Below the pieces are notes generated by a model, which did no database searches, was not told the DNA's origin, and saw nothing but the letters and a program-made list of their open reading frames with translations. Made by a program: the position numbers and the translations under genes. From Endozoicomonas sp. 8E (GTDB lineage Bacteria > Pseudomonadota > Gammaproteobacteria > Pseudomonadales > Endozoicomonadaceae), in assembly GCF_032883915.1 (NCBI RefSeq), contig NZ_CP120717.1, positions 4,471,697-4,535,696 on the forward strand: a stretch of DNA of 64,000 nucleotides, written 5' to 3'. Positions 20,210-29,440 of the stretch are shown in pieces. Within the stretch, counting starts at the first letter, position 1; every line of letters begins with the position of its first letter.

Positions 20210-20283
20210 ATCGGGATAGGGCGTAGCCTCACAGCTACGCTCACCGGGTAGAAGGAGCTACCAATTGTAGCTCCAACCCCCTC

Positions 20284-20317
20284 AGATCCCGGCGTGCGGA
20301 TTTCCCGCACCGGGCTC
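20284..20317 (-). other. Domain V of the inner group II intron
   Basis: 34-nt catalytic hairpin with a GAAA tetraloop, AGC triad at the 5' side (20316-20314) and CG bulge on the 3' side. Intact by eye, so the ribozyme core could still be active. Confidence 0.85.
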
Positions 20318-20330
20318 TTCGATATTTGAC

Positions 20331-21637
20331 TCACAGCACAGCCATGGATTTCATTGCCATAAAAGGCAGCATCATCCTCGGTTTCTGTAACGGCAGAAGC
20401 TGCTTGAGATTATGGTACTTTTCCCATGGAATCTTGCCTTTCCGGCATCGGCTACACAGCATCTTGTACCAGTAGCGGTCAACAAACCGGTAAAGCTTCT
20501 CCATACTTCGGAAGTTTCCTCCCAGACCGTAATACGCATAATGCCCTCTCAACCGTCGATTGATCGCTGTCACTTGTTCGTGCAGCGGATCATGGCGTAT
20601 TCGTCTCAGCAGTTCCTTCAGTTTGGCTATGCTGCGTCTTAGGCGGGATTTTTCCGTTCTCCTTCCCACCATGAAGTTTCCTTTCAGATTCCTTGTGCAG
20701 TAGTGCGTAAAGCCAAGGAAGTAAACCGTCTCCGATCGTCTTCCCCACGACTGGCAAAACGTCCGAACCTGACTAACCGGGTTTTATCCGGCTCCAGTTT
20801 CAACGCAAATTTCTCCAGTCGCTGTGGCAGCACATTCATGAACCGCTCCGCATCACTGCGATACTGAAAACACACCACAAAGTCATCAATGTACCTGATC
20901 AGCCATGCCTCGCCTTTTAGCCGGGGCTTGACCTTGCACTCGAACCAGAGGTCAAGCACATAATGCAGGTACAGGTTGCTCAGAACTACGCTGATCGGCC
21001 CACCCTGAGGCGTACCTTCTTCACACTCTTGCAACTCCCCGGCCTCCATCACCCCGGCTTTCAACCAGCGCCGTATAAGGTTCAGAATTCTGGGATCACC
21101 GACCCGGTGTTCCACAAAACGAAGCAGCCATCCATGGTCAAGACTCCCAAAGAAATTCTTCAAGTCCGCTTCCAGCACCCAGCTGACCTTTCGGCCTGAA
21201 ACCACCTCGTTAAAAGTGGACAGGGCATGGTGCGCTCCCAGTCGTGGCCTGCCACCCATGGAACAGGGCAAAAAGTCCTGCTCATAAATAGCATTCAGCA
21301 CATCAGCAACACTTCGCTGCAAAGCCCGGTCATTGATGCAGGGAACACCCAGAGGGCGCTTTTCCTTTTTCCCCGGCTTGGGTATCCATGCCCTTTTGAC
21401 CGGCGGTGCCTTGTAGCCTTGCCGATGGATAGACGTCAGTGTCTGTTGCAACCACCGCTTAAAGTCTTTCTTTGTCTCTTCGACAGTCAGCCCATCGACT
21501 CCGGGCGATGTGTTGTGTGGAATCTTGTTCAGATTCATACACAGGCTCGCCGGGGTAATATGATGTGCCAGACTTGTGAAGCGAAGTTTCGGATAACTCC
21601 GGGCTTTCGCTGCTACCCTCTCCAGTCCCGTTGCCAT
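20331..21637 (-). pseudogene. ltrA: Group II intron reverse transcriptase/maturase (inner intron), frameshifted
   Basis: Two adjoining frames make one protein. The first (20684-21637, 317 residues) has the RT core: SPGVDGLTVEETK, KRPLGVPCINDRALQ, EADLKNFFGSLDH, GTPQGGPISVVLSNLYLHY and the catalytic RYIDDFVV. It leaves frame near 20735, where the +1 frame reads ETVYFLGFTHYCTRN, and continues into 20331-20672 with the maturase domain (GRRTEKSRLRRSI, INRRLRGHYAYYG). A single indel explains the break. No endonuclease domain is seen. The start ATG at 21637 follows AAGG. Confidence 0.85.
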
Positions 21638-21639
21638 GG

Positions 21640-22168
21640 CTGGTTTACCTTCTCACTGCGTAAAAGACCGTAACTCCCTCAGATGTGGAGCCCATGTTTC
21701 CCTGGAAAGGCTCAAATACCGCCAGCCGCTTCCCCATGTGACGGGCTCTCCCCGCCTCGGAGTACTATCAGCTGGTCTGACTTCCTGAACGTCATCAAGT
21801 CGTTCTTGCTTTACAGGCTCGTCGGACCCTACAGGCTCCGCCTGAACGTTCAGGATCTCCCTTGTTCACGTAAAATCATTCGATAACATGCCGTGGGTAC
21901 GAACCCCGGAAGCAGTCGGGATGCCTTGTCATTAGCGGAGCTCCCGACTTCCGCTTTCCCCATTGAGAGAGAAGGTCAGCCACTTCAACCACGTTCAATT
22001 TCGGGGCTAATTATCCCTTAGCAGACGTTACGGCCTGTTATCACCCTGTCTACGCTTCGCAGTAGTCGTTACCTTCTACCACGCAAGACTCGGTACACGG
22101 CTGCCGACCACAGCTTTACCGCGATGACCATTTCAGGTCACAAGATTTTACGCGCTTGCAAGGCGCAA
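21640..22168 (-). other. 5' ribozyme domains (I-IV) of the inner intron
   Basis: About 530 non-coding bases upstream of the inner reverse transcriptase. On the minus strand they contain many short helices and the stretches GAACGTGGTTGAAGTGGC and GGGGAGAGCCCGTCAC, in a layout common to bacterial group II introns. The small frames here have no start signals and are not genes. Confidence 0.65.
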
Positions 22169-22172
22169 CTCC

Positions 22173-22206
22173 CACAACACCCAGCATACGGGTCCGTACT
22201 GGGCGT
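22173..22206 (-). other. Domain V of the outer group IIC intron
   Basis: CGCCCAG (22205-22199) pairs with CTGGGTG (22184-22178), TACG with CGTA above a TG bulge. The CGC triad at 22205-22203 separates this class from the AGC of other group II introns. It lies 11 bases past the reverse transcriptase stop. Confidence 0.8.
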
Positions 22207-22215
22207 TTCGGTCAG

Positions 22216-23501
22216 TTAAGCAGCCAATAATCTAATCAAACCTAATTCATCGAACCAACTATTCGGCAATGCTAAGTGTAGCGCAGGACTCCGGCTTATC
22301 CGCCAGTACCCTTTGCTCGATCCTACTGTCTGCCTCGTCAGCTCTTCACTGACTCCTCGCCTTCTTAGCTCCGCATATCGCTTCGGACTTTTCTTCCATT
22401 GATACCAGAGCAAACTTCTCAATCGTCGCCTGATCCAGCAGTCAAAGTTTTCAAACTCCGAACGGGTTTCAACTTCTCGAAAGTAGTTCTTCCAGCCCCG
22501 TAAATAGCGATTCAGAGACTCCAATCTCTGCTCCAGTGACCGCCCGCCTTTGCGGGTTAGTTGTTTGACCTTGTCCCTGAACCGCTTGCAGGTTTTATCT
22601 GCCAGCTTCTTCCTGCCATCTCTGGTAAAGCTGTATCCCAGGAACGCCCGCCTCCATGCCTTGTCAACTGCACTTTTCGCAACGTTGACCTTTAGCTTCA
22701 GCTTACTTTCGATGTAACGAGTCAAACTTGCCATCACTCTCTCGCCTGCTTTCTTGCTTCGCACAAACACCCGACAGTCGTCAGCATAACGTACAAATCG
22801 TAAATCACGCTTTTCTAACTCTTTATCGAGTTCATCCAGTACGATGTTAGATAACACAGGTGAGAGCGGTCCTCCCTGAGGCACTCCTTCAGTCTGCGGT
22901 TTTACCAGCCCGTTCTCCATCACTCCGGACTGTAGGAATCGTCGAATTAAACGTAATACATCCTTGTCATCTGTGTGAACGGCCAGTTTTGCCATCAGTC
23001 GATCATGGTTAACCCGGTCGAAGAATTTCGACAGGTCAATGTCCACAACCCAGTTATATCCTTCTCGGATATACGACTGAGCCTGATTAATCGCCTGATG
23101 AGCTGACCGGTTCGGCCTGAACCCGTAACTGAAAGCTGAAAACCTTAGTTCCCACTCGGCCTGCAATACTTGCTGTATCGCTTGCTGCACCATTCGGTCT
23201 AAGGCGATTGGTATACCCAACTGCCTTTCTCCTCCGTCCGGTTTGGGAATCAGTACTCGCCTTACGGGAGCAGGACGCCATTCTCCCTGCAAAGACATTG
23301 CCGCAGTTCATGACCATGTTCTTGTAGATGGGTGTACAACCCTTCCACTGTCATACGGTCGATGCCTGCTGCGCCTTTATTGCGTTTAACTCGCTGAAAG
23401 GCTCTTGTTAAATTATTGGGGTTGGCGATACGTTCCATCAGGCTCGTACCACCCGCCGGGCTTTCGTAATCCTGTGATACCGACACGACCTCAGCTCTCA
23501 T
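22216..23501 (-). pseudogene. ltrA: Group IIC intron reverse transcriptase/maturase (outer intron), frameshifted
   Basis: N-terminal piece (frame of 23262-23501, from ATG 23501 with GGAGG upstream) reads NNLTRAFQRVKRNKGAAGID, then runs off frame at about 23290. The rest (to 22216) continues QGEWRPAPVRRVLIPKPDGG, the RT blocks DIDLSKFFDRVNHD, EGVPQGGPLSPVLSN, the catalytic RFVRYADDCRVFV, and the C-terminal WYQWKKSPKRYAELRRRGV and GYWRISRSPALHLAL typical of class C proteins. One missing base between LRQ and LQGEW accounts for the break. No endonuclease domain, as usual for class C. Confidence 0.85.
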
Positions 23502-23992
23502 AGCCTTGCAGCCTCCGGTTCCGCCGTGACCACTTGGCATGAGTTCCAGTGTTTTCTGGATTTGTCTGCGTCCAGTGTATCGAATAACAGAAACTACTCA
23601 CCACTCTGTACCGTTCAAGCCTTCACTGACATACGCCAGCTACTATGCCATCTGCTGACTTCTGTGTGGCGGTCAAGTCACCTTACGATGGCCTCAGTCC
23701 GAAATATCAGACACCACACAGACCTCCCGAGGTAAGTCACACCGCCTTCGCCGCACAACCGCCAGATCTACTGCCTGAATGTCCGGATGAGTATGGACTT
23801 CGTCATCATACGCTGACTCGTCCTCACGCAAACAGCCTCATATCTGATTTCTGTTCGTCGGCTCGCGGTTTTGCTCCACACTGCCTTCAGCCTGCACCTC
23901 ACGATACAAACCTTGTGCTTCACTAGTCCTTCGCCCTCATCTGGCTGGACAGGGGACTTTCACCCCCAAGCTGTGTGACATGCTCGGCACAC
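23502..23992 (-). other. 5' ribozyme domains (I-IV) of the outer intron
   Basis: About 490 non-coding bases from GTGTGCC at 23992 to the reverse transcriptase start. Contains GGGGGTGAAAGTCCCC close to the 5' end. Short frames here lack ribosome sites and are not called. Confidence 0.7.
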
Positions 23993-23995
23993 ATA

Positions 23996-24030
23996 AAAAA
24001 ACCCGAAATGAATCATTTCGGGTTTTTTCA
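23996..24030 (-). terminator. fimV rho-independent terminator and intron target
   Basis: On the minus strand AAACCCGAAATGA-TT-CATTTCGGGTTTTTTT: a 10-bp stem with a small loop and a T-run, starting 17 bases after the fimV stop. The outer intron begins three bases after the T-run. Confidence 0.9.
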
Positions 24031-28910: not shown

Positions 28911-29069
28911 GTCAATACAATCTCAAATCATAGTACGCACCAATGTACAGCATAACCATTTTCAAACAACTGTTTAATTTACTGGTGGCTCTAAGACCTG
29001 TTTGCACCTTCGCTAAAGGAGAGAAAAAATCGTCGTTAATCGAAATTTTACAGATACTCCCGCGAAGGA

Positions 29070-29160
29070 GGCTGTCGCAAAACTCTAACAACTCGTTCCC
29101 ACGCTCTGAGAGGCTGTCGCAAAACTCCAACAGCTTGTTCCCATGCTCTGAGGTCGTCAT
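29070..29160. repeat. Two tandem copies of a GAGGCTGTCGCAAAACTC repeat
   Basis: Units of about 45 bases: each starts GAGGCTGTCGCAAAACTC and ends with GTTCCCA then GCTCTGAG. An inverted copy lies at 29375-29440, so the region can fold into a large hairpin. Same family as 18431-18515. Confidence 0.75.
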
Positions 29161-29176
29161 TCCCGCGAAGGCGGGA
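29155..29176. repeat. REP-like inverted repeat
   Basis: GTCATTCCCGCGAAGGCGGGAATCC: arms ATTCCCGC and GCGGGAAT around GAAG. A matching unit occurs at 29266-29288 (GGATTCCCGCCTTCGCGGGAATGAC). This type of palindrome is common in intergenic regions of many proteobacteria. Confidence 0.7.
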
Positions 29177-29284
29177 ATCCAGCGCAAACGGTGGATCTCT
29201 GCCTTCTCGGGGATGACAAGGCCAAGGGGGCACCGGGCAGTATGTTTCTGGTGGTGAGTCAGTGTGGATTCCCGCCTTCGCGGG

Positions 29285-29365
29285 AATGACGAGAATGAAG
29301 TCGGGAATGACGAGAATGAAGTCGGGAATGACGAGAATGAAGTCGGGAATGACGGGAGTCAACTC
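29285..29365. repeat. 21-bp tandem repeat, three perfect units plus a partial one
   Basis: Unit GGGAATGACGAGAATGAAGTC, repeated three times, then GGGAATGACGGGAGTC. It seems to have grown out of the right flank of the REP-like palindrome. Confidence 0.85.
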
Positions 29366-29374
29366 ATTCCTTCG

Positions 29375-29440
29375 CTGGTGAGGGTTTTGCGACACCCTCT
29401 GGAGCGTGGGAACCAGAGTTTTGCGACAACCCCCTTCGCG
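29375..29440. repeat. Inverted copies of the GAGGCTGTCGCAAAACTC repeat
   Basis: GAGGGTTTTGCGACACCCTC and CCAGAGTTTTGCGACAACCCC are the reverse complement of the 29070-29160 units, with GGAGCGTGGGAACC between. They close a roughly 370-base composite structure. Confidence 0.7.

Follow-up and report, generated by a model that had tools for sequence, protein, structure and literature searches.

Several twintrons, in which one group II intron interrupts another, are known in bacteria, and introns of Methanosarcina home into each other (PMC4424553). In Thermosynechococcus elongatus, nested group II introns occupy one conserved site in several copies, and outer and inner introns are thought to move separately (PMC2882425). 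In the archaeon Methanosarcina acetivorans, group II introns have homed repeatedly and site-specifically into other group II introns, several levels deep (PMC4424553); judging by the title of the original description, the targets are open reading frames (ORFs) of related introns. The Trichodesmium twintron nests two distantly related group II introns, both bearing a reverse transcriptase (RT), and its inner intron is spliced first in vivo (PMC4649490). Finally, the psbF twintron of Euglena carries a group II intron in domain V (DV) of its host, whose folding requires excision (PMC8393795). Here, we describe a composite element of Endozoicomonas sp. 8E within a stretch of 64,000 nt (contig NZ_CP120717.1, positions 4,471,697 to 4,535,696; hereafter, the window). 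As read from its sequence, this element is a bacterial twintron: a complete group II intron within domain VI (DVI) of a group IIC-type intron. We consider it very likely that its inner intron belongs to a lineage homing to the DV/DVI junction of other introns.

In T. elongatus, ORF-less inner introns have inserted between two start codons within the RT ORF of close relatives (PMC2882425), whereas here an inner intron equipped with an RT gene of its own occupies the DV/DVI junction and the hosts represent several classes. Likewise, the M. acetivorans targets differ from those found here, where unrelated introns from six bacterial phyla are entered at DV/DVI. The Trichodesmium twintron is a single locus in a gene rather than a lineage with a fixed structural target (PMC4649490), and the Euglena psbF twintron is one described plastid case with no shown mobility or site-specific lineage (PMC8393795). 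Bacterial class E / IIB introns resemble the inner intron in having an RT/maturase that lacks the endonuclease (En) domain, and one was reported from Sinorhizobium meliloti, whose plasmids also hold the inner lineage (PMC3552965, PMC5894124). This likeness is by description only, and the accessible parts of those papers do not mention insertion into introns. Searches of the open-licence literature, a scope outside which key intron papers lie, turned up no DV/DVI-homing lineage, and the terms sought did not occur in the available part of PMC3927076.

Copies of the element were sought in the single 7.38-Mb contig that makes up the genome of the window. This contig holds seven full copies of the 5' end of the outer intron, starting at the counterpart of position 23992, plus one 49-nt partial match. 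The seven composites, 3783–3786 nt long and 99.2–100% identical to the window copy, all start with GTGTGCC (23992) and end with CCCTATCCCGAT (20210), and their flanks differ. When positions 22168..20243 are taken out of the window sequence, the remaining 1857 nt align end to end, at 98.8–98.9% identity, with seven introns that stand uninterrupted in a sister species (G002; loci and genomes are given as L and G numbers), and from first to last base with two introns of G007 at 82%. The DV–DVI stretch runs unbroken across the junction 22169/20242 in 14/14 outer-only copies from three genomes (G002, G007 and G027), and G002 gave no match to the 5' region of the inner intron. Four copies in G007 (L114–L117, 691 nt) and one in G027 (L120, 561 nt) are short derivatives of the outer intron, too small for an RT; their junction is contiguous, and they are probably ORF-less forms moved in trans. 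A fossil outer 3' end in the window's own genome (L045) also has an uninterrupted DVI. Thus, the nesting, the exact ends and the empty sites are directly shown by these alignments.

Table 1. Features of the composite element and adjacent sequence, in window coordinates
Feature	Position	Strand	Basis or remark
Composite element, whole	20210..23992	(-)	3783 nt; both ends common to 7 genome copies
Outer group IIC-type intron, 5' part (domains I to V and first bases of DVI)	22169..23992	(-)	Alignment to outer-only copies
Outer RT/maturase, frameshifted in window copy	22216..23540	(-)	ORFs 23262-23540 and 22216-23298; TIGR04416, RVT_1, GIIM
Outer DV, CGC triad	about 22176..22207	(-)	32-nt stem in fold of 22163-22207; triad by eye
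Outer DVI, 5' strand, serving as intron-binding site 1 (IBS1) of inner intron	22169..22174	(-)	6/6 pairs with exon-binding site 1 (EBS1); GGGAG 22173-22169
Inner group II intron, TTGCGCC...CCCGGT	20243..22168	(-)	1926 nt; ends from empty sites of three hosts and one repeat
Inner ribozyme domains	21894..22133	(-)	RF02005, 105.7 bits
Inner EBS1 (CUCUCA)	21964..21969	(-)	Lineage alignment and pairing test
Inner RT/maturase without En domain, frameshifted in window copy	20331..21637	(-)	ORFs 20684-21637 and 20331-20672
Inner DV and DVI	20243..20319	(-)	RF00029, 45.8 bits (gathering 40)
Outer intron, 3' part (remaining DVI, bulged A, 3' splice site)	20210..20242	(-)	Contiguous with GGGAG in outer-only copies and fossil L045; covariation
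fimV terminator hairpin, directly before outer insertion point	23996..24028	(-)	Perfect 15 bp; ends 3 nt before intron
fimV-like ORF	24047-26452		Gene name as given in the initial annotation

Compensatory changes are seen in the restored DVI. Its fold has z = -4.06, and in a set of six distinct sequences, two of them joined computationally (the window copy and L040), all 13 pairs are kept throughout and four have changed on both sides. Shuffles reached the observed paired percentage in 1/500 cases, the number of pairs changed on both sides in 33/500 and the further pair types in 297/500. The inner intron enters the 5' strand of this helix between the fifth and sixth pair, above a bulged A that lies 8 nt from the 3' end of the outer intron. 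The initial annotation had proposed just this nesting, with the same two ends, GGGAG at 22173–22169, a joined DVI with restored pairs and the bulged A at this distance, and each of these points is borne out. Its outer DV at 22173–22206 was real, CGC triad included, with the fold placing the domain at about 22207..22176. The inner intron does have its own DV with an AGC triad, DVI and RT/maturase, as had been claimed, and its 3' region (20243–20330) folds with z = -4.06, yet the RT is frameshifted; indeed, both RT genes of the window copy, outer and inner, are split into two frames each. Covariance models, proposed as a check, recognise the inner intron through RF02005 and RF00029 and the outer one through RF02001 (23908–23737) and RF01998 (23696–23618), but the outer DV gave no RF00029 match at E<=1. 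No model fit was found that ends the outer intron before 22169 (no Rfam model here covers its 3' end), and each occurrence found of the 20210–20242 hairpin terminates such an intron, whether intact or fossil.

The twintron had been regarded as a rare case, whereas the comparative data reveal a recurrent, target-specific lineage. Species genomes were scanned with an alignment of two inner RTs, yielding 65 loci, 23 of which carry TTGCGCCTTG 516–536 nt before the RT (the lineage 5' end, UUGCGCC). Because RF00029 had missed the outer DV, a separate DV test was devised, which looks for a hairpin with a triad (AGC, CGC or AAC accepted) whose 3' end falls 3–11 nt before the insertion. The test was positive at 19/23 of the UUGCGCC loci, compared with 178/39894 random positions of those loci (0.45%); of the four misses, L124 has a 39-nt flank and L183 is partly N, the other two being L135 and L139. 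The test is unusable on short or masked flanks (L124, L183), reads some IIC hosts in a shifted register (L140, L141, L154) and overlooks visibly decayed DVs (L139, L209). The 19 positive flanks comprise 17 distinct sequences with a median ungapped identity of 48%. A locus starting GTGCGCC (L133) was positive too, and one starting TTGTGCC (L136) lies behind a DV by eye; relatives starting GTGCGCCAGG gave 0/16 positives and those starting TTGCGCCAGG (L159, L184) 0/2, the remaining loci being truncated or without a callable 5' end. By eye, the 3' flanks resemble the remainder of a host DVI, and in one case (L126) the host is a lineage member itself, inside a third intron.

A second set, from four rhizobial plasmids, contained 30 loci, of which 22 had readable 5' ends; L215 and L219 are one element, leaving 21 sites. 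Here, the DV test was passed by 17/21 sites and by 5/9 distinct 48-nt flanks. In each of the annotated regions L195–L199, a second RT or maturase-domain gene ends 30–46 nt before the inner intron. A host RT was detected by similarity within 2.5 kb upstream at 14/26 loci, the matches at L195 and L197 being their own annotated genes; hosts at the other 12/26 may lack an ORF or be fragmentary. All 20 DV-site rows of a 42-row RT tree fall in a 26-row clade (94/96) and none in its 15-row sister group (98/98). Four rows labelled 'other' lie inside the clade, L136 among them. The DV-site rows derive from six phyla (Pseudomonadota, Bacillota, Acidobacteriota, Nitrospirota, Thermodesulfobacteriota and Myxococcota), several of them as contigs of metagenome-assembled genomes (MAGs). 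These sequences directly show the recurrent DV/DVI position. The distribution of the lineage is patchy, and some of its members are located outside DV sites.

Target recognition by the inner intron could be traced through EBS1, a 6-nt loop segment of its domain I that was aligned across the lineage, its partner being the last six bases before the insertion. In 21 loci, 118/126 positions pair. Among the 17 distinct EBS1/IBS1 combinations, 94/102 positions pair, compared with 81.8 (standard deviation 2.6) when partners are exchanged, a value as high being reached once in 20000 exchanges. When the IBS1 site was slid along the flank, pairing was 98/126 at offset 2 and at most 70 at other offsets. 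Moreover, deviant sites match deviant loops, namely CCCCGU/GCGGGG in L137, CCCGCU/GGCGGG in L143 and CGCUCA/UGAGCG in L125. The EBS1/IBS1 match is shown directly by these sequences. A second contact, with GUUC or GAUC on the 3' strand of DV, is suggested in part of the loci by a fitting sequence, the probable EBS2 (GAAC or GAUC).

The termini of the inner intron, fixed by the empty sites, are UUGCGCC...GGU, and thus depart from the usual 5' GUGYG and 3' AY. The first base of a group II intron contacts the penultimate one. First and last intron nucleotides have been described as interacting (PMC4424553). At loci with both ends callable, U1 occurred with G at -2 in 22/22 cases and G1 with A at -2 in 15/15, counts that include near-copies and leave out six loci in which one end is unreliable (L136, L159, L184, L172, L156 and L186). 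The lineage's first and penultimate bases have probably changed together, from G.A to U.G.

Besides the composites, the window's genome holds four full-length inner copies (L040–L043) and one 150-nt 3' fragment. L040 sits in the diverged DVI of a 5'-truncated relative of the outer intron, and L041 has likewise entered a DVI, that of an unrelated intron. The DV of this host reaches 56 bits with RF00029, an HNH-like motif is visible by eye, and the host occurs uninterrupted in the relative G015 (L231). L042 and L043 are probable ectopic insertions into a genomic repeat that matches no Rfam family. Next to L042, a comparable repeat stands empty and agrees with the same inner-intron ends. The sequence at the repeat site, CGGTTTTGTGAGGA, mimics a domain V end. 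In this genome, then, 9/11 full-length inner copies are in a DVI. The joined site of an Endozoicomonas acroporae twintron (L121, on the same contig as L124) has three mismatch-free occurrences in G015, and the reversed-pattern control for it had none in 33 genomes. Further DVI-like ends stand in series behind the uninterrupted host DVI in G015 (L240, L238), which suggests deeper nested arrays. Three short fragments in G011 (L061, L064 and L067) resemble the 5' end of the inner intron, although their first bases are GTGCGCC; L061, apparently with both ends present, looks like a small deletion derivative.

The outer intron, for its part, favours hairpins: a perfect hairpin of at least 7 bp stands just upstream of 18/24 outer insertion sites from five genomes, compared with 312/20000 random positions. 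Under this strict test, 4/7 composites pass, and the other three have stems that are imperfect by eye. One repeated hairpin, TTCCCACGC...GCGTGGGAA with TGCATAC after it, often precedes the outer intron both in G002 and in the genome of the window (L104–L110, L034–L036), which gives the impression that a dispersed repeat is the favoured target. No En domain was found among the domain matches of its RT/maturase. A CGC catalytic triad in DV is a feature of group IIC. Published text ascribes this triad to 'some introns' (PMC4424553). Elsewhere in the window, the ORF 29048–29395 encodes repeated VIPDFILVIPDFILVIPAKAGIH and resembles translated dispersed repeats more than a gene.

Taken together, these observations fit a course of events in which a mobile group II intron with an En-less RT invaded the DVI of a mobile group IIC-type intron that inserts behind hairpins, the inner lineage having adopted the DV/DVI junction of other group II introns as its homing site. 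In the excised inner RNA, associated with its RT, EBS1 would pair with the 5' strand of the host DVI and EBS2, probably, with the 3' strand of the host DV, whereupon the RNA would reverse-splice into the DV/DVI junction; insertion by retrohoming would account for this pattern. The target may fit several intron classes because DV/DVI sequence belongs to the catalytic core and can hardly be changed by the hosts. In the most likely order, excision of the inner intron comes first and re-forms the host DVI; splicing and movement of the host would thereby stay possible, and new host copies would become invaded again. The lineage would then be mainly a hyperparasite of other group II introns that homes to DV/DVI across six phyla, a reading that we favour with somewhat less assurance than the homing itself.

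A number of observations weigh against this interpretation. L135 and L139 fail the DV test despite full flanks, as do 4/21 plasmid sites, and 2/11 full-length inner copies in the window's genome sit in a repeat. L142, L153 and L167 belong to the DV-site RT clade without a demonstrated DV, and the DV-site label needs five changes on the RT tree. Many lineage loci are MAG contigs, and the lineage counts rest on loci found through similarity to the inner RT. Among 398 sampled genomes of the phylum, a close relative was present only in the window's own; two other matches were 42% identical. Within that genome, the window copy has both RTs broken, the inner RT is interrupted in 7/7 composites, and two inner single-nucleotide polymorphisms (element positions 2838 and 3620) follow one composite group, which fits common movement of the two introns too.

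The broken frames bear first on the possibility, tentative in our estimation, that the window copy is a dead double fossil and that the choice of site seen in the lineage is a record of past activity alone. The truncation of some hosts, seen as 12/26 loci with no RT within 2.5 kb, agrees with it, as do the frameshifts in both window-copy RTs. However, open frames persist in the same genome: the longest outer frame spans 460 aa in five composites and 363 aa in the other two, one of which is the window copy, and the longest inner frame, 250–368 aa in composites, is 440 aa in L040 and L043. In addition, copies that are 99.2–100% identical imply a recent spread, and RTs can act in trans, as in T. 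elongatus (PMC2882425). With the inner RT interrupted in all composites, movement would need such help. We thus prefer to regard the system as one that may still be active.

It is unlikely, though conceivable, that the inner intron need not leave at all, the composite being spliced as one large unit or the outer intron being released by hydrolysis without a usable branch point. The basal DVI helix and the bulged A, both below the insertion, could form around the inner intron; plant mitochondrial 'zombie' twintrons splice as one unit (PMC8393795), and hydrolysis competes with branching in group II introns (PMC7161350). Set against this, the inner intron retains complete, Rfam-recognised ribozyme domains and the lineage keeps correlated terminal bases, both as expected if splicing continues, and inner-first splicing has a bacterial precedent in Trichodesmium (PMC4649490). 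Prior excision of the inner intron therefore remains our preferred order of events.

Still less probable is movement of the composite as one unit by means of the outer RT, with the inner intron a passenger in all seven copies. It would explain why all seven full-length outer copies found in the genome are filled, and it accords with the two tracking polymorphisms and with an outer frame open in five composites while the inner RT is interrupted in every one. Yet the histories of the two introns are mismatched. The outer introns of L037–L039 are identical, and yet 18 and 16 positions separate the inner intron of L039 from its two counterparts; conversely, the inner introns of L033–L035 are identical, and the outer intron of L033 differs from the others at 17 and 18. 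Inner and outer distances are uncorrelated (Mantel r -0.09, 1884/5040 permutations as high), also when outer bases 1–900 are used (r 0.07, 1152/5040). Gene conversion could blur this comparison, but both Mantel tests weaken composite mobility as the sole cause. Elsewhere, identical inner introns in diverged outer introns have been taken as independent insertion (PMC2882425). As the inner and outer histories disagree in this genome, the inner intron has probably moved separately from the outer one.

Finally, a stem at 20210–20242 that folds well alone and that downstream sequence could extend might be taken for an unrelated terminator beside two side-by-side introns, an arrangement with next to no probability that the empty sites refute, as do the 3' end common to seven composites whose downstream DNA differs and its contiguity in 14 outer-only copies.

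Bacterial twintrons have been described as rare, whereas the present lineage appears to use nesting as a strategy, in which a mobile ribozyme targets what is most conserved in fellow mobile ribozymes, across classes. Such a strategy predicts a wide host range and targets that could hardly escape. It also predicts selection on the parasite for good splicing, because failed excision would silence the host. The recurrent composites would thus offer natural, repeated material for studying the order of nested splicing, composite mobility, the need of group IIC introns for DVI and the interaction between the first and penultimate nucleotides.

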